This document shows, piece by piece, positions 2,718-14,397 of a stretch of DNA of 37,983 bases (position 1 is its first letter; each line of letters begins with the position of its first letter). The position numbers and the translations under genes are program-made. Below the pieces are notes generated by a model, which did no database searches, had not been told where the DNA came from, and saw only the letters and a list, made by a program, of their open reading frames with translations. The DNA is taken from IMG/VR virus record IMGVR_UViG_3300042691_011349, positions 1 to 37,983 of that record, one strand, 5' to 3'. The DNA comes from a virus.

Positions 2718-2910
2718 AGCGAGTCCTTGCGTTGTCGGTGTTCTGCACGATGTTGGTGCGGATCACATGGATGCTGGTGCCGTTCGAGGGGTCGATGCCC
2801 CGCTCAAGCCACGCCTTCACCACGAAGCCCCGCTTCATCCACCAGTTCTTGATGTCGGCCATCAGCTTGTAGTTGGCTGCCTTGTCCGACAGGTAGTCAT
2901 GCTTTGCCAT
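2701..2910 (-). CDS. Small hypothetical protein downstream of DNA polymerase
   Basis: 69 aa, basic, with an aromatic patch NWWMKRGF (22-29) and then a strand-like IHVIRTNIVQN segment (47-57). It starts 14 nt inside the end of the polymerase gene, with GGAGG just ahead of the ATG (2908-2910), so it is co-expressed with the polymerase. No known domain. The size, charge and position would suit a small nucleic-acid-binding or polymerase-accessory protein, but that is inference. Confidence 0.65.
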   Translation of the reverse strand: MAKHDYLSDKAANYKLMADIKNWWMKRGFVVKAWLERGIDPSNGTSIHVIRTNIVQNTDNARTRYVTDR

Positions 2911-4336
2911 GGGGCCTCCACTTCTTCAAGCCATCCGGATTTCCCGGTCCTGCCTTGAGCCAGTTGTACCCCACTTCTACATCAAATGGAATAATAATCT
3001 CACGCGATATCCCCTTGATGTCAGTGACAGGGAAGGGGAAGCGCAGGCACTCCAACACCTGCGGCAGCATCTCATCGGCCTTGTCGATGCGGACCTGGCC
3101 CAGCACCGCATCATGCAAGTTCAGCAGGATCTGCACATCTGCGCCAGGCTTACCCTCGAACTTCTCCCACAGATTGTAGATGCCAATGTTCATCAGCACA
3201 CCCACGCAATGCTGGGGCACGAAGGCAATCGCCTCCCGCAGCGTGGCATCGTCCCACCTCCGGTTCCAGAAGTTGCGCCGAATACCGAACGGCGTAGTCA
3301 GGCAGCCCTTCGTCTGCAACTGCTTGGCTACCCACACATGCCAGTCGCTGATGCCGGGGAACCTCCTGAAGTACTGGTTCTGGAAAGCCTCGGCCACCGC
3401 AGTCTCGACCTTCATCTGCTGCGCCAGCGTGAACGGCTTGCCATAGTAGTTGCTGCCGTGTGCGCCCTTCTTCGTGATGTCCCGGTACGAGTAGCCCCGA
3501 TAGTACTCGCGCTCCGCCAACTCCCTATCGGGTGGGAAGCCGAACACCATGCTGGCCACCATCGTATGCGAGTCGCCACCTTCGACGGCTGCGATGTAGT
3601 TCTCATCGCCCGACAGGTAGGCCACGATGCGAGCCTCGGCACCTTGTTGGTCCGAGTAGAACATGACGTAGCCGGGGTCAGCCGTGAAGCAGGAGCGGGC
3701 TTCCTTCGGTATGTTCTGAAGGTTGCTGCCGATCCGGAAGGGATGCTCACTGGACGAGAGGCGGAACGTCTCGGTGCCCGCAATGTTGAAGGAGGCATGG
3801 AAGCGGTTCGTCGGGGACAGCTTCTTCGAGAGGAACTCGACCTGCTTCTCAAGGTCGCGGATGCGGAGGATATGGTTGGCGAAGAACGCGCCTCGCGTGT
3901 AGTTGGCAGCGATCCGTTCGAGGATTTCCCGGTCGGTGCCGACCTTGGTTTCGCCCTTCTTGGACTTGGTCTGTTCCGGAATGGCAAGCAGCGTGTAGAA
4001 CAAGTAGATCAGTTGGGGCGTGGAGTTGTGGTTGACAGTCGTGCCCCAGAGCGCCTCGCACACATGGTCGAAGTTGGCTTGCACCTTGTTGGCGCGGGCA
4101 CGCAACCCAGCGACCAAGCCGTCCCGCTTGACCGTGTCGATCTGGACACCACGCCGCATCATGGTGAGGATCGGACCCAGCATCAGTTCGCTATATTCAT
4201 GGGTGGTCTTGGCCCACGCAGGCAATAGGCCCCCATCATAGATTTCCTTGAGGGCCATAGTCTGCATGGTGTCGAGCGAGTTATATACGATCTCCTGGTT
4301 CTCAGGAGTTGGCGTCATGTCCGTGATTGTTCGCAC
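2897..4336 (-). CDS. Family A DNA polymerase, polymerase-domain subunit (also carries ExoIII motif)
   Basis: 479 aa; replicative Pol I-like polymerase domain. Motif A is SDQQGAEAR (D229, E234, R236), motif B is RDITKKGAHGSNYYG (285-299), motif C is LHDAV (H408, D409; Ala where Pol I has Glu). The first 25 residues hold YNSLD (18-22), the YxxxD ExoIII motif that normally ends the proofreading domain, while ExoI and ExoII lie on the separate gene at 4625-5566. The proofreading site is therefore divided between two polypeptides. I chose the GTG at 4334-4336: it has AAGG eight bases ahead, whereas the in-frame ATG at 4318 has no ribosome site. Confidence 0.93.
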   Translation of the reverse strand: MRTITDMTPTPENQEIVYNSLDTMQTMALKEIYDGGLLPAWAKTTHEYSELMLGPILTMMRRGVQIDTVKRDGLVAGLRARANKVQANFDHVCEALWGTTVNHNSTPQLIYLFYTLLAIPEQTKSKKGETKVGTDREILERIAANYTRGAFFANHILRIRDLEKQVEFLSKKLSPTNRFHASFNIAGTETFRLSSSEHPFRIGSNLQNIPKEARSCFTADPGYVMFYSDQQGAEARIVAYLSGDENYIAAVEGGDSHTMVASMVFGFPPDRELAEREYYRGYSYRDITKKGAHGSNYYGKPFTLAQQMKVETAVAEAFQNQYFRRFPGISDWHVWVAKQLQTKGCLTTPFGIRRNFWNRRWDDATLREAIAFVPQHCVGVLMNIGIYNLWEKFEGKPGADVQILLNLHDAVLGQVRIDKADEMLPQVLECLRFPFPVTDIKGISREIIIPFDVEVGYNWLKAGPGNPDGLKKWRPHGKA

Positions 4337-4628
4337 TGACGTTACCTTTCAGGAAGGCGTCCCGCATACGAGACAGAATGTGCAGCGTCAAGGGCGGCCC
4401 CTCATACGCCTTGAAGAAGTTGCGTACCCGCGACGGATCAATGTCCGCAGCCAGACACACCTCGTCGAAGTTCTGGGCGGTGGTGCCATACTCGACCGTC
4501 AGCCAAGCACGGGCCTGTCTCTTGTGGGCTGCGGCTGCCGGTGTCTGGGTGGCAGCCGTCGCATCTATCAGCGCCTGGATTATAACGCTGGCCCACAAGC
4601 GCCGCAGGGACGCATCATCTTCGCTCAT
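4302..4628 (-). CDS. Small helical, HTH-like protein inserted between the two polymerase genes
   Basis: 108 aa. After a variable Ala-rich segment comes the pattern W..VEYG....NFDEVCLAADIDP followed by SRVRNFF, which reads like a short DNA-binding helical domain; similar 'F..VC..A.ldP..VR' proteins are common in alphaproteobacterial phages as far as I recall. It overlaps the exonuclease stop by 4 nt (ATGA) and the polymerase GTG by 35 nt, so it is fully embedded between the halves of the polymerase. Function unknown; it shows no homing-endonuclease or intein motif. Confidence 0.7.
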   Translation of the reverse strand: MSEDDASLRRLWASVIIQALIDATAATQTPAAAAHKRQARAWLTVEYGTTAQNFDEVCLAADIDPSRVRNFFKAYEGPPLTLHILSRMRDAFLKGNVSANNHGHDANS

Positions 4629-5566
4629 AAAGCTCCGCTCTTATTGAAGTCCTTCTTGGCCTTGGTCCGCAGATGCTTCCATGCTCGGGTCGGAATATGG
4701 AGTGAAGCTAGGAAGCCCAGCGACTTCTCCCATTCCGGTTGCCACGCATGGTGCCGAAGCATCGTGTCGAAGATCGGGCCTTTGGGTCGTATAGTATAAG
4801 CGTCGAGGTAGGTCAAGTCATACGTTGCGTTATGGAAACCCCACGCCAGATCCTTCCGATCCGCCAGAAAGCGCAGCCACAACCAGATATCCAGTTCGTC
4901 TTGCTCCGACCACTGCGACCGGTAGCCCATGTCCTCTAGCTGCACATACAGACAGCAGGCCGACGACGTAGCCACGGAGAACTCCGTGATCCGGCACGAC
5001 TTGTTCGTCTCCACATCGAAGACGATCTGGTCCCCGATGTGCTGCGTCGAGAACGCATACAGATCAGCAATGCTGTCGGGCAGGTAGATCGTCCTCGGCT
5101 TATCGACGAACCGCTGCTTCGCCTTCCGCATAGCTGACACCACGACGGGCCGCTCGTTCCACGCCATGCGCGCATACAGGTAGGGCGCATAGGTCGGCAC
5201 CACCTGAAGGCCCTCGACATGTGGGCTGTCAACGTGGGTGCCACGGAAGGTGTCGATCTTGTACTCGCCGGTCAGGCAGAACATGGCGTGCGCGCCCAGC
5301 GTCAGCACCACATCATAGCCCTTCAACTTCTCGGCCAGCGTGTCGCGGCAAGACTTGGCGAAGGGCAGCAGTTCGCCGCCCACCTTGCCGCCCACAAACA
5401 GCGTGCCCCACTTCTGCACATAGGCAGGGTGCGCGCATGTGATGAGGTCAGGCTTGAAGTCGGCCAGCTTCATCAGTTCGCTGGTGACTTGCCACTCCCA
5501 CTCCGACATGACGCCACCGGCAGCGGCATCGACGGAGGGCCAATCAATTACGAGGGCGGTCTTCAA
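4625..5566 (-). CDS. 3'-5' exonuclease half of DNA polymerase with UDG-like N-terminal domain
   Basis: 313 aa. Residues about 84-150 resemble the uracil-DNA-glycosylase-like fold fused to many phage Pol A enzymes (LTLGAHAMFCLTG, FRGTH, VVPTYAPYLY). Then come ExoI FDVET (D184, E186) and ExoII HNATYDLTYL (N246, D250), then D267 and the SLGFLAS...AWKH helix. The protein stops before the ExoIII YxxxD motif, which is on the polymerase gene. The TTG start at 5564-5566 has GGAG seven bases upstream; a TTG at 5593 has none. It should pair with the polymerase subunit to proofread. Confidence 0.82.
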   Translation of the reverse strand: MKTALVIDWPSVDAAAGGVMSEWEWQVTSELMKLADFKPDLITCAHPAYVQKWGTLFVGGKVGGELLPFAKSCRDTLAEKLKGYDVVLTLGAHAMFCLTGEYKIDTFRGTHVDSPHVEGLQVVPTYAPYLYARMAWNERPVVVSAMRKAKQRFVDKPRTIYLPDSIADLYAFSTQHIGDQIVFDVETNKSCRITEFSVATSSACCLYVQLEDMGYRSQWSEQDELDIWLWLRFLADRKDLAWGFHNATYDLTYLDAYTIRPKGPIFDTMLRHHAWQPEWEKSLGFLASLHIPTRAWKHLRTKAKKDFNKSGAL

Positions 5567-5705
5567 GGGGAAGCTCCATCTGCACGGGGGCAATCACGAC
5601 GAAGGGGCTGCGCCGCTCAGGCTTCGGCATCTCGGTGCCATGCTCCTTCCGCCATTCCTCCTGCACGATATCTAGGCGGGCCGAAGGGTTGTAGTTCCTA
5701 CACAT
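5544..5705 (-). CDS. Small hypothetical protein (53 aa)
   Basis: An ORF of 53 codons from ATG 5703-5705 with an excellent GGGAG seven bases upstream. The peptide starts MCRNYNPSARLDIV, continues with a charged helix and ends in RSPFVVIAPVQMELPLED. It begins one base after the lysin stop and overlaps the exonuclease start by 23 nt, the spacing expected for coupled translation. The Met-Cys start recalls SRAP (HMCES/YedK) proteins, but nothing else of that fold is present. No function assigned. Confidence 0.6.
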   Translation of the reverse strand: MCRNYNPSARLDIVQEEWRKEHGTEMPKPERRSPFVVIAPVQMELPLEDRPRN

Positions 5706-10175: not shown

Positions 10176-10979
10176 TTAGTCTTCGCTATCCTGACCCAGC
10201 CAGAACAGGAAGTCTTCCTCTTCCTGCGCTGCGTGTGCCGCGTCCATGTCGTAGATCGGCTTGTCCTTGAAGATATCGGCGGCGTCGGGCACCTCGAACA
10301 TCACCTCATAGGAAGTGCAGCGCAGCTTCTGGTTGCCATAGTCAGAGGGCACAGACACCACGTTGGCCGGGTCGATCTTGACCGCGACCAGCTTGTCGCC
10401 GGGCGACATGAAGCCCCGCGCATATTCGTAGGCAGCAGCATGGAAGCCATAGCTGCAAGTCTTGTTGCGGTCGTCATCGACGTCGTGGCGCGGCATGGAG
10501 TGGACGCTGCCGGGTGAGTTGTCGAAGCGACCGGAGTGCTTGTCCTTGAAATCGGAACGCACCGCCTTGTATGCGAGGAAGTAACCGTCCGGGGTGATCG
10601 GCAGGTTAGCCGCTTCGAGGAACAGGAACAACTCGTTGCGGCTGGTCATAGACGGGTTCGCCATGAGGTTGTCGAGGAACTTGCAGTAGTGGTCGAGGGG
10701 CAAGCCCTCGCGAAAGAACAGCATCATCTTGTCCACAAGGTAGCCGGTGATGGAATGGCCCTTGTAGGTCACGCCATCGTCGGTGACGGCCACGTCGCCC
10801 GCCGTCATGGCATTGATGAAGGACTTGACAGAGCCAAGCTCAATGGCCTTGTCGAAGTCATGCGCCTTGATGGCCTCGACGACAGCCTCGAAGTTCATGT
10901 GCGAGGCATCGACCACGAGGGGCGGCTCCCCGAAGGGGAACAGCGTGACGGACTTGGAGGTGAGAACGAACGGAACCAT
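10176..10979 (-). CDS. rIIB: rIIB-like protein
   Basis: 267 aa. The middle and C-terminal part carry the conserved rIIB-like run: KFLDNLMANPSMTSRNEL, FLEAANLPITPDGYFLAYKA, FDNSPGSVHSMPRHDVDDDR, CSYGFHAAAYEYA, then VAVKIDPANVVSVPSDYG. T4 rIIB acts with rIIA in membrane-associated defence against the lambda Rex system; the role here is unknown. The ATG at 10977-10979 has AAGGAG nine bases upstream. It directly follows the rIIA homologue, keeping the classic pair. Confidence 0.85.
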   Translation of the reverse strand: MVPFVLTSKSVTLFPFGEPPLVVDASHMNFEAVVEAIKAHDFDKAIELGSVKSFINAMTAGDVAVTDDGVTYKGHSITGYLVDKMMLFFREGLPLDHYCKFLDNLMANPSMTSRNELFLFLEAANLPITPDGYFLAYKAVRSDFKDKHSGRFDNSPGSVHSMPRHDVDDDRNKTCSYGFHAAAYEYARGFMSPGDKLVAVKIDPANVVSVPSDYGNQKLRCTSYEVMFEVPDAADIFKDKPIYDMDAAHAAQEEEDFLFWLGQDSED

Positions 10980-10997
10980 TGCTGCTATCTCCTTGGA

Positions 10998-13124
10998 TCA
11001 GCGGTTGATGTAGTCGTTGAGGGTAGCTTCAGGAACATTCTGGAAGTTGATGTGGTGCAGCATCGGGTGCATGTCGAGGAACTTCTTCCACTCTGCTGCC
11101 AGTTGGTAGCCTACATTCCTGCCCCGCTCCTTCGCCTTCGTCTGACCGGCAGACATCATAACATCGAGGCCCATGTGTTCGCCGTACCGGTGGTAGTCAT
11201 AGTTGCGCTTGAAGTAGGGGCGCACAATCTGTAGCACAGGATCGAGGCCCTTCCAAGTAGCTTTTTCAATGATCGCACGGCGAGGTGACATGCCCTGCGC
11301 CAGCCAAGTAAGGGCGGCACCAGCCTTGTAGTGTTCCTCGATGAAAGCCTCGGGCACATTGGCGGCCACCCAGTCGGGATCGAAGCGGACCCAGCCATGC
11401 TTGGCAAGGTTAGCCTGCAAGGTCTTGGACCTGTTCAACTCCGCAGCCGATACCCCAATGACACGGGGGTTCATGGATACCCCAAGGAAGCCGATAGCAT
11501 GGAGCGACCGCAGCGCCCGGTGGTAGTTGCCGGGAGGCTGCCCCTCCACGAACTCCAGATAGATGCCGCCCCCTGCCAGATTGATAGGCGAGGTTGTCCT
11601 GTCATAACTGTAGTCGTTGGCATCGTTGAAGACGTAGCCTCGGGTCTTGGGTGCAGTCGAGGTAGGTGCCGCCGCATTGGAAGGCGGAGCAGCCAGATCG
11701 GTGTCGATGTTGACGGGCTTGGGGATGCCGCGCTTCTCACACAGATCGCAGAAGTCTTGGTATGGAACGCCGCTAACGACAGTCAGCTTGACGTCCGTCC
11801 TCGGCGTGACCTTCGGATAGGCGTGCTTCAGCTTGGCATAGACCGCAGCCGTAACCTTCGAGGTCCACATCACCTTCCATGTCACGTTCTTGAAGCGCGG
11901 AATGGCGTGTTCGAGGCGATAGTCTTTGTCACCGTAGGGTTCGCGGCGGAAGCCATTCCAATGGGCGTGCCGCGTGTAGTCGAACAGCTTCGGCGGGGCA
12001 TCCGGCTTGGCGAGGGGAGCCAGATCCACAATCTCCCGCACGTTGATGACCTGCCCCTTCCAAGTAAGCGTCATGCTGTCCTTCAGGGCAGCCAGCACCT
12101 TGCTTGCGCCACGAGCCAACCCCTCGGGGCCGTGCAGGTATTGGCGGGCATCGGCCAGCGTCGGCTGGCTTGCAACCTCGGCCTCGACCGCCAGCCGAAC
12201 GTCACGCAGCACCTCGGCCAGGCGCAGGGTCAGGAACTTGATGGTGGCCGGGTCATAGGACAGCGCCTCCCGTGAAGGGCTGATAGACACGCTGCCCATA
12301 GGCACCCGGATCGCCAGCCACAACAGGGCCAGCACCTTCTTGGCAGGGTCGGGCAAGTCCGGAAGCGAGTTGTAGTCCAGCCGATAGGGCACGTTGCCCA
12401 TGACGACAGTCGTCTCGGACCCAATGCTCTCCCGCACCAGCCACGCCGGGCCGCCGTCCACCTGTTGCTCAGACTTGAAGGTGAGGACGTCGGAGGTGAA
12501 GCGCCATGCAGACAGATCGACGTTGTGACTAGGCATGGTCGGCCACCAGCGGAACAACTTGCCTGCCTGTTCATACCAGTCACCGAAGGTGCCGCTGGAA
12601 CGGGTGAGGGGGACGCGCACCTCGATGCCGCTGTCCGTGCCGCACTTCTCCGTGCCGACATGATTGACGCGCGGCAGTCCGTCCTGCCGATAGCAGACAT
12701 AGGTCCGCTTCTCGCCAGCGTGCCACGATGTGACCGTGAACTGGTCGGTCACGGCGAAGGGAGACTTGGAGCCAAGCCCGAAGCCGCCGATCTGGGTGTT
12801 GTCTTGGTCCTTAGTCGAGCGGAAGTAGGTGGTGTAGAGGGACAGCACATCGTCATGGGACAGGCCGTGCCCGTAGTCGCGGACATAGAAGACAGGGTCC
12901 GCATAGGTCGGCAGATGCACCTTGATGCTGCTGATCGAGTGACCGGCCTGCGTGTGTGCATCCACCGCATTGCAAGTGATCTCGCGGATCACAGCCAGCG
13001 TCTTGTTCTGGTAGAGGTTGGACGACAGGATCTCGAAGGCTTTGCTGCTGGCGGCAATGGTGAATGCGCCGCCGCTGCCAAGGCCACCAGCCTCTACAGT
13101 CTCGTGTTCACGCATCATAAGCAT
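10998..13124 (-). CDS. rIIA: rIIA-like protein with GHKL ATPase domain
   Basis: 708 aa. The N-terminal GHKL ATP-binding fold is clear: REITCNAVDAH (N box, about 47-57), VRDYGHGLS (G1, about 81-89) and IGGFGLGSKSPFA (G2, about 112-124). This matches T4 rIIA and relatives, with a long, less conserved C-terminal region containing a Pro/Ala/Thr-rich linker (about 495-510). It is paired with rIIB and probably guards against host exclusion. The start at 13122-13124 has AAGGA eight bases ahead. Confidence 0.87.
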   Translation of the reverse strand: MLMMREHETVEAGGLGSGGAFTIAASSKAFEILSSNLYQNKTLAVIREITCNAVDAHTQAGHSISSIKVHLPTYADPVFYVRDYGHGLSHDDVLSLYTTYFRSTKDQDNTQIGGFGLGSKSPFAVTDQFTVTSWHAGEKRTYVCYRQDGLPRVNHVGTEKCGTDSGIEVRVPLTRSSGTFGDWYEQAGKLFRWWPTMPSHNVDLSAWRFTSDVLTFKSEQQVDGGPAWLVRESIGSETTVVMGNVPYRLDYNSLPDLPDPAKKVLALLWLAIRVPMGSVSISPSREALSYDPATIKFLTLRLAEVLRDVRLAVEAEVASQPTLADARQYLHGPEGLARGASKVLAALKDSMTLTWKGQVINVREIVDLAPLAKPDAPPKLFDYTRHAHWNGFRREPYGDKDYRLEHAIPRFKNVTWKVMWTSKVTAAVYAKLKHAYPKVTPRTDVKLTVVSGVPYQDFCDLCEKRGIPKPVNIDTDLAAPPSNAAAPTSTAPKTRGYVFNDANDYSYDRTTSPINLAGGGIYLEFVEGQPPGNYHRALRSLHAIGFLGVSMNPRVIGVSAAELNRSKTLQANLAKHGWVRFDPDWVAANVPEAFIEEHYKAGAALTWLAQGMSPRRAIIEKATWKGLDPVLQIVRPYFKRNYDYHRYGEHMGLDVMMSAGQTKAKERGRNVGYQLAAEWKKFLDMHPMLHHINFQNVPEATLNDYINR

Positions 13125-13709: not shown

Positions 13710-13910
13710 TCAGGCTCCCGTGTGGTTGGGGGGCAGGGTGTTGAAGGCTTCTTCCTCGGTGCGGAGGGTGTCGAGGTAGGTGGCGAAGTCGAGGCGGGCA
13801 TGGTGGCCCTGCGATGCGATGAAGTTGAGGGTGACAAGCAGCATGATGGAGGTGTCCCACCCCAGCCCATCAGCTACCTGTTGTAGTGCCCGTTGCGGAT
13901 CACGTTCCAT
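13710..13910 (-). CDS. Hypothetical protein, first gene of the left operon
   Basis: 66 aa: a short charged N-terminus, a hydrophobic helix (TSIMLLVTLNFIASQG, 20-35) and an acidic helix (DTLRTEEEAFN). The ATG at 13908-13910 follows CATAGAAGG. It lies at the divergence point with the HNH gene, so transcription of the whole rIIA-to-left block may begin just upstream. No family recognised. Confidence 0.6.
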   Translation of the reverse strand: MERDPQRALQQVADGLGWDTSIMLLVTLNFIASQGHHARLDFATYLDTLRTEEEAFNTLPPNHTGA

Positions 13911-13933
13911 GGTTGCGTTCCTTCTATGGAAGA

Positions 13934-13962
13934 TTGATTTCCTACGTGACTTCTGGTATTAT
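13934..13962 (+). promoter_or_regulatory. sigma-70-like promoter for the HNH gene, TTGATT-17-TATTAT
   Basis: TTGATT (13934-13939) and TATTAT (13957-13962) are separated by exactly 17 nt, 34 nt before the GTG of the HNH gene. The same gap may hold a leftward promoter (TAGTTA-17-TATAAA, minus strand, 13978-14006), which would overlap the start of the HNH gene; that one is weaker. Confidence 0.55.
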
Positions 13963-13995
13963 TTCCTATGGAAACTTTTTATAGGAAGTACACCT

Positions 13996-14397
13996 GTGGA
14001 TAACTACAAAGCCCTTCACCTAGAGTCGATAACCAAACTGGAAGAATCCAATCCGGATATCTGGAAAGAAGTTTATAAGAGGTCTCGTCTTTTAGCCATG
14101 CTTGCTCGCCTAAAATGTTCAGCGAAACGCAAGAAAGTTCCTTTCAACTTGAATCCGGACAACATTACTTTACCTGAATACTGTCCTGTCTTGGGAATTA
14201 AACTTGTATTCAACACTGTGGCACCTGACGACAACTCCTATAGCATGGATCGTATCGACAATACAAAAGGATACACAATGGATAATATCTGCGTCATGTC
14301 CTTAAAGGCTAACAAGATGAAATCAAACGGGACACTGACAGAACTGGTCAAGCTGGGCAAGTGGGCCGAAGCGCAGTTGAAATTTCAACCGGATTAA
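13996..14397 (+). CDS. HNH-like endonuclease (AT-rich, probably acquired)
   Basis: 133 aa from GTG 13996-13998, with AGGAAG nine bases ahead. The C-terminal half has the HNH-like layout of phage enzymes: CPVLG (63-67), SMDRIDNTKGYTMDN (83-97, with DRID and GYT..N) and MSLKANKMKSNGTL. These usually nick or cut DNA and often act in homing. It is the only rightward gene in the left 20 kb and is visibly richer in A+T than its neighbours, with AAA/AAT/TTA codons, so recent transfer is likely. Only one Cys is present, so no zinc knuckle is predicted. Confidence 0.72.
   Translation: MDNYKALHLESITKLEESNPDIWKEVYKRSRLLAMLARLKCSAKRKKVPFNLNPDNITLPEYCPVLGIKLVFNTVAPDDNSYSMDRIDNTKGYTMDNICVMSLKANKMKSNGTLTELVKLGKWAEAQLKFQPD

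Follow-up and report, generated by a model that had tools for sequence, protein, structure and literature searches.

A phage family A DNA polymerase divided within its exonuclease site, and the probable completion of proofreading in trans

Family A DNA polymerases normally have their proofreading site on one chain. In the viral DNA considered here (the window: the whole analysed stretch of 37,983 nucleotides, IMG/VR record IMGVR_UViG_3300042691_011349), the motifs of such a site are divided between two genes with a third one between them. This raises the question of whether a proofreading exonuclease could still be formed, and from which parts. The genes are arranged on the minus strand in the order exonuclease (exo), 108-aa ORF, polymerase (pol), and the features of the locus are as follows.

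5574..5577, minus strand: Shine-Dalgarno-like GGAG of exo, read from the sequence
4625..5566, minus strand: exo gene, uracil-DNA glycosylase (UDG)-like N-terminal domain followed by the ExoI- and ExoII-bearing core of a DEDD 3'-5' exonuclease; 313 aa, TTG start at 5566, TGA stop
5117..5566, minus strand: N-terminal domain of exo related to UDG family 4, eroded in the window lineage (profile and structure matches)
5006..5020, minus strand: ExoI motif FDVET with Asp184 and Glu186, exo residues 183-187
4805..4834, minus strand: ExoII motif HNATYDLTYL with Asp250, exo residues 245-254
4302..4628, minus strand: junction gene for a 108-aa helical protein, in all close relatives reaching that region
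4345..4349, minus strand: Shine-Dalgarno-like AAAGG of pol, read from the sequence
2897..4336, minus strand: pol gene, family A DNA polymerase without ExoI or ExoII; 479 aa, GTG start at 4336, Pfam DNA_pol_A
4271..4285, minus strand: ExoIII motif YNSLD with Tyr18 and Asp22 at the N-terminus of pol, residues 18-22; the point of HNH gene insertion in relatives

ORF and sequence reading bore out the coordinates, motif positions and gene order proposed in an earlier sequence-only reading of this DNA, including the location of ExoI and ExoII on the 313-aa protein and of ExoIII on pol, the separate ribosome sites upstream of exo and pol, and the overlap of the 108-aa ORF with both neighbours (4 nt with exo, 35 nt with pol). 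In the window, exo and pol share one frame by chance, with 7 stops separating them. Elsewhere in the window, rIIB-like and rIIA-like genes are adjacent at 10176-13124 (PHROG_609, E=1.5e-67; PHROG_612, E=9e-105), and another free-standing endonuclease ORF is found at 13780-14397 (PHROG_3322, E=3e-24).

The two proteins correspond to consecutive parts of one polymerase. Pol is a family A enzyme by its match to Pfam DNA_pol_A (E=7.6e-42, 144 bits against a cut-off of 34.3), and exo matches DNA_pol_A_exo1 with E=8e-4, under the Pfam cut-off. Together they match successive segments of PHROG_17, 552-779 (E=1e-12) and 807-1232 (E=2e-57); as in split polymerases of the gp43A/43B type, two ORFs cover one ancestral enzyme. 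Of the elements of a PolA-type DEDD(y) exonuclease, the ExoI D-x-E and the ExoII aspartate are present on the exo protein, and the ExoIII Y-x3-D, expected on the same chain, is on the pol chain. Exo has no ExoIII of its own: it ends 16 residues past a conserved Trp-Lys, the residues that precede ExoIII in unsplit polymerases, and pol starts 17 residues ahead of the ExoIII tyrosine. In the unsplit relative L046 a loop of about 20 residues joins the same two points, which indicates that no protein segment was lost and that the cut lies in a loop. The N-terminal domain of exo resembles UDG, as judged from the match of profile A5 to UDG structures (E=7e-27) and of the homologue from Caulobacter phage Kuura to TIGR00758 (E=1e-19); the window protein itself gives a weak UDG-family match. 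A GExPG-like motif of this domain is kept in Kuura and others and lost in the window lineage (5117-5566).

The split is not peculiar to the window. A cut at the same point was found in about 64 viral contigs or records, Kuura (OQ067476) being the sole isolate among them in a tblastn search of 50,697 phage records with four exo proteins. The IMG/VR scans gave 43 pol relatives, nearly all close, and exo, the 108-aa ORF and pol are separate genes in 36 of 36 close relatives with both parts, a set in which some contigs are near-duplicates and L002 is possibly the window's own population. A later scan added one further case (L078). The same split was seen in another 28 records beyond the 36; a profile search reached contigs at 31-42% pol identity, and the split lies at this point in all 25 of these with both parts. 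The BFVD structure library contains a stand-alone uncultured-phage exo of 82% identity, and in L083 exo lies about 6 kb away from pol with its catalytic residues intact. A scan of genome contigs for hosts or prophages found no relative.

The search for an unsplit homologue in related phages, which the sequence-only reading had called for, was successful (L046, for example): unsplit forms are carried by contigs at about 29-31% identity (L110, L111, L113-L116, L118-L121) and by phages MW202489 and Mel-JY34. In a tree of 50 polymerases, built without two long-branch outgroups that had made an earlier tree unstable, the 36 split rows occupy one side of a branch and the 14 unsplit rows the other (support 86/96), and this branch is present in 84% of bootstrap trees. 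Monophyly of the split forms is thus supported, if not decisively, and a single origin of the split would be the simplest reading. On these sequence comparisons, the fission of a family A polymerase into two independently translated genes seems to be old and clade-wide, and the phage group that bears it, large and mostly uncultured, appears not to have been described before as a whole.

Both parts have been preserved. All 45 aligned exo rows keep Asp184, Glu186, Asn246 and Asp250, and all 49 pol rows keep Tyr18 and Asp22, unsplit rows included; invariance of single residues could in part reflect a constraint of the fold. Over 20 close genomes pol has the lowest median dN/dS, about 0.066, against about 0.13 in exo and 0.12 in the 108-aa ORF; the values are rough because synonymous sites are near saturation. 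These estimates indicate purifying selection on both exo and pol, the rate of exo being about double that of pol. Distances between genomes calculated from exo and from pol are correlated (r=0.90; 0 of 2000 shuffles as high), thus the two halves travel together.

For prediction of a joint fold, the window region from exo to pol was submitted to AlphaFold2 as one chain, with stops replaced by glycine and the out-of-frame gap serving as linker. The resulting model of exo, linker and pol has a mean pLDDT of 85.9 and a pTM of 0.81, values below a pLDDT of 50 being confined to the linker (313-408) and the three C-terminal residues. It is a proxy: its linker is artificial and its alignment held 10 unsplit homologues, both of which favour the fused arrangement. 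The PDB structures that it matches best are Klenow-type enzymes; the alignments cover about 730-760 columns, the TM-score to the target is 0.72-0.78, and in the model the superposition spans exo and pol together. The composite model also superposes on the Klenow fragment of E. coli, which is a single chain.

The most plausible explanation, to which we assign a probability of roughly 77%, is an old and clade-wide fission whose products reassemble into a Klenow-like enzyme with a shared proofreading site. The ancestral polymerase would have been cut in the loop that connects ExoII to the ExoIII helix; the exo and pol products would then associate non-covalently, and one site would be built from Asp184, Glu186 and Asp250 of exo and Asp22, with Tyr18, of pol. 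Physical association and nuclease activity in trans are what we infer, and the joint fold is predicted. Invariant residues, purifying selection and a confident joint fold, taken together, make an exonuclease completed in trans much the likeliest reading of the locus, its activity being a prediction from sequence and model. The earlier proposal that a working exonuclease would have to assemble in trans is supported as well.

What made the cut is a separate problem. The sequence-only reading had considered the gene to be split by insertion, with the 108-aa gene lying in the gap. Searched for in relatives, this ORF was present in every close one reaching the junction; outside the window's lineage the one similar ORF is that preceding pol in L085 (E=8e-6), and other split relatives and named phages gave no match. 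Kuura and the IMG/VR relatives L083-L109 and L112 share the split point, with ExoI and ExoII on one gene and ExoIII at the pol N-terminus, and differ from the window in their junction genes. Relatives at 31-42% identity carry other genes there, or none (L096, L101); the occupants include a nucleoside deoxyribosyltransferase-like protein (PHROG_355), dNMP kinase, pyrophosphatase, RNase H, a zinc-finger protein and ORFs of no known function. Since the split is common to relatives with differing or no junction genes, it predates the presence of the 108-aa ORF, which, on this comparison of sequences, is one of many later junction occupants and not the cause of the split. Nucleotide-metabolism genes (DUF1937/DUF4406 deoxyribosyltransferase-like, dNMP kinase, pyrophosphatase) are frequent at the junctions of L084-L108, and in L019, L021, L022 and L040 exo is separated from the 108-aa ORF by an endonuclease-like ORF (PHROG_1035, endonuclease VII group).

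The idea of splitting by insertion may nevertheless hold for another element, since lost, because in some relatives an endonuclease gene is inserted at exactly this site. An HNH_3/AP2 gene (L004:5460-6008, L031:5460-6008, L043:5460-6008; PHROG_99, E=2e-30 for the L004 ORF) lies between the 108-aa ORF and pol in three contigs, precisely between the YN and SLD codons of ExoIII. Upstream of it the old 5' end of pol is retained without mismatch to relatives over 56 nt (L004) or 57 nt (L043) as far as the YN codons, where the match breaks off, as it also does in L031 at this position. Beyond the HNH gene, pol begins anew with another 5' sequence, in which the motif is restored as YNAGD or YNASD. 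The break and the new 5' end together indicate that the HNH element interrupts precisely the ExoIII codons and brings with it a recoded version of them. Recoded pol 5' ends are found also in L011 and L017, which have no HNH gene, and an altered pol start with YNALD kept is common to L026, L028-L030 and L039; from their sequences, these recoded ends and altered starts look like scars of element loss or of transfer of a resistant allele. Homing endonucleases favour functionally critical codons, and split products can reassemble (PMC2988022). The original fission could have been initiated by a homing endonuclease inserted at the ExoIII codons and later lost, a proposal weaker than the main reading and with rather less than an even chance of being right. 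Similarly tentative, and somewhat short of even odds, is the broader picture of a metal site shared by two proteins throughout the clade, in which fidelity could be set by their ratio or association and the cut would have been made and revisited by homing endonucleases targeting the ExoIII codons.

Other explanations of the divided site have to be considered. Proofreading might have been lost, and exo kept for another role, through its UDG-like domain or as a structural part of the polymerase. The faster evolution of exo and the very presence of a UDG-related N-terminal domain would agree with this; however, the metal ligands of both proteins are without exception invariant down to about 30% identity, Tyr18 and Asp22 could change freely if pol did not proofread, and the UDG-like domain is just the part eroded in the window lineage. 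Loss, which had been raised as an option before, is argued against by the invariance of the catalytic residues in exo and pol alike and by the purifying selection on the two genes, and we regard it as improbable. A dedicated third subunit in the window lineage, the 108-aa protein clamping exo to pol or regulating proofreading, is unlikely too, if slightly less so. Its ORF occurs in all close relatives that reach the region, has a dN/dS of 0.12, overlaps both genes in the window and has a similar ORF preceding pol in L085. On the other hand, other split relatives have no match to it, from which it follows that assembly in trans does not need it in general, and the structure model of the protein alone is poor (pLDDT 53), below the quality needed for a structure search.

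Two further possibilities would remove the division altogether. The exo and pol ORFs could be joined at the RNA or protein level, by intron, intein, readthrough or frameshift, into a full-length polymerase. Phage polymerase genes often carry inteins. Group I introns are frequent in them as well (PMC10580990, PMC2993671), and in-frame intein-like insertions of about 300 aa (starting with C and ending with GN before S) are present inside pol of two relatives at two different sites (L040:1114-3462, with Pfam Intein_splicing at E=1e-3, and L112:3375-5819). At the junction, by contrast, neither a group I intron core nor any other Rfam family was matched at the gathering threshold in the window or in six relatives, and the exo C-termini and pol N-termini showed no intein motifs, in agreement with the sequence-only reading. 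Exo has its own stop and pol its own start and Shine-Dalgarno sequence; in close relatives start codons of both genes vary among ATG, GTG and TTG, and the purine-rich upstream site is mostly kept. No segment is missing between the end of exo and the beginning of pol. Junctions extend from adjacent genes to about 6 kb, and frame offsets of 0, 1 or 2 among relatives exclude frame error, readthrough and programmed frameshifting as a general joining route. Such joining thus seems very improbable. A sequencing or assembly error, conceivable for a single metagenomic contig, is refuted by some 64 records cut at the same point, an isolate genome included, and its probability is negligible.

A trans-assembled exonuclease, the preferred reading, can be compared with several known systems. 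Gene 43 (43A/43B) of Aeromonas phages 25 and 44RR and nrdA of Aeh1 are split in two with a homing endonuclease or a spacer between, and their products are reported to assemble and work (PMC2988022). The likeness is that of a phage replication enzyme in two polypeptides; the difference is that the enzyme is a family B polymerase or a reductase. Closer in family are the MEP401-type OM43 phages (PMC10580990) and Vibrio phage vB_VspS_VS-ABTNL-3 (MF497422; L126:2456-5590), in which a family A polymerase is encoded by two ORFs with a small ORF between. Unlike in the window, they are cut inside the polymerase domain, with the entire exonuclease on the first ORF. PolA relatives in two ORFs were also found in phage MW202554 (L128:1727-4364), cut after ExoIII, and in L117 (L117:679-3380), cut between the UDG-like and exonuclease domains, both of which leave the active site on one chain. 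ExnV1 (PDB 7r0t), a stand-alone phage PolA-type 3'-5' exonuclease and in its authors' view a truncated polymerase, has all catalytic residues including the ExoIII aspartate, unlike the window exo (PMC9629493). In the open-licence papers searched, no description of a polymerase split dividing ExoII from ExoIII was found, and a word search of the Kuura paper (PMC9959647) turned up neither a split nor an exonuclease. Set against the PolA precedents, which leave the exonuclease whole, the novelty here is that an entire clade has its cut running through the exonuclease site; gp43 enters this comparison as a polymerase in two polypeptides.

In this clade the exonuclease half may end up annotated as hypothetical, as in Kuura (OQ067476). 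A long-lived natural split of this kind provides a ready-made two-component system in which the coupling of proofreading to synthesis can be tested; it would allow one to ask whether phages tune fidelity by the supply of subunits, and may inform how homing endonucleases drive gene fission.
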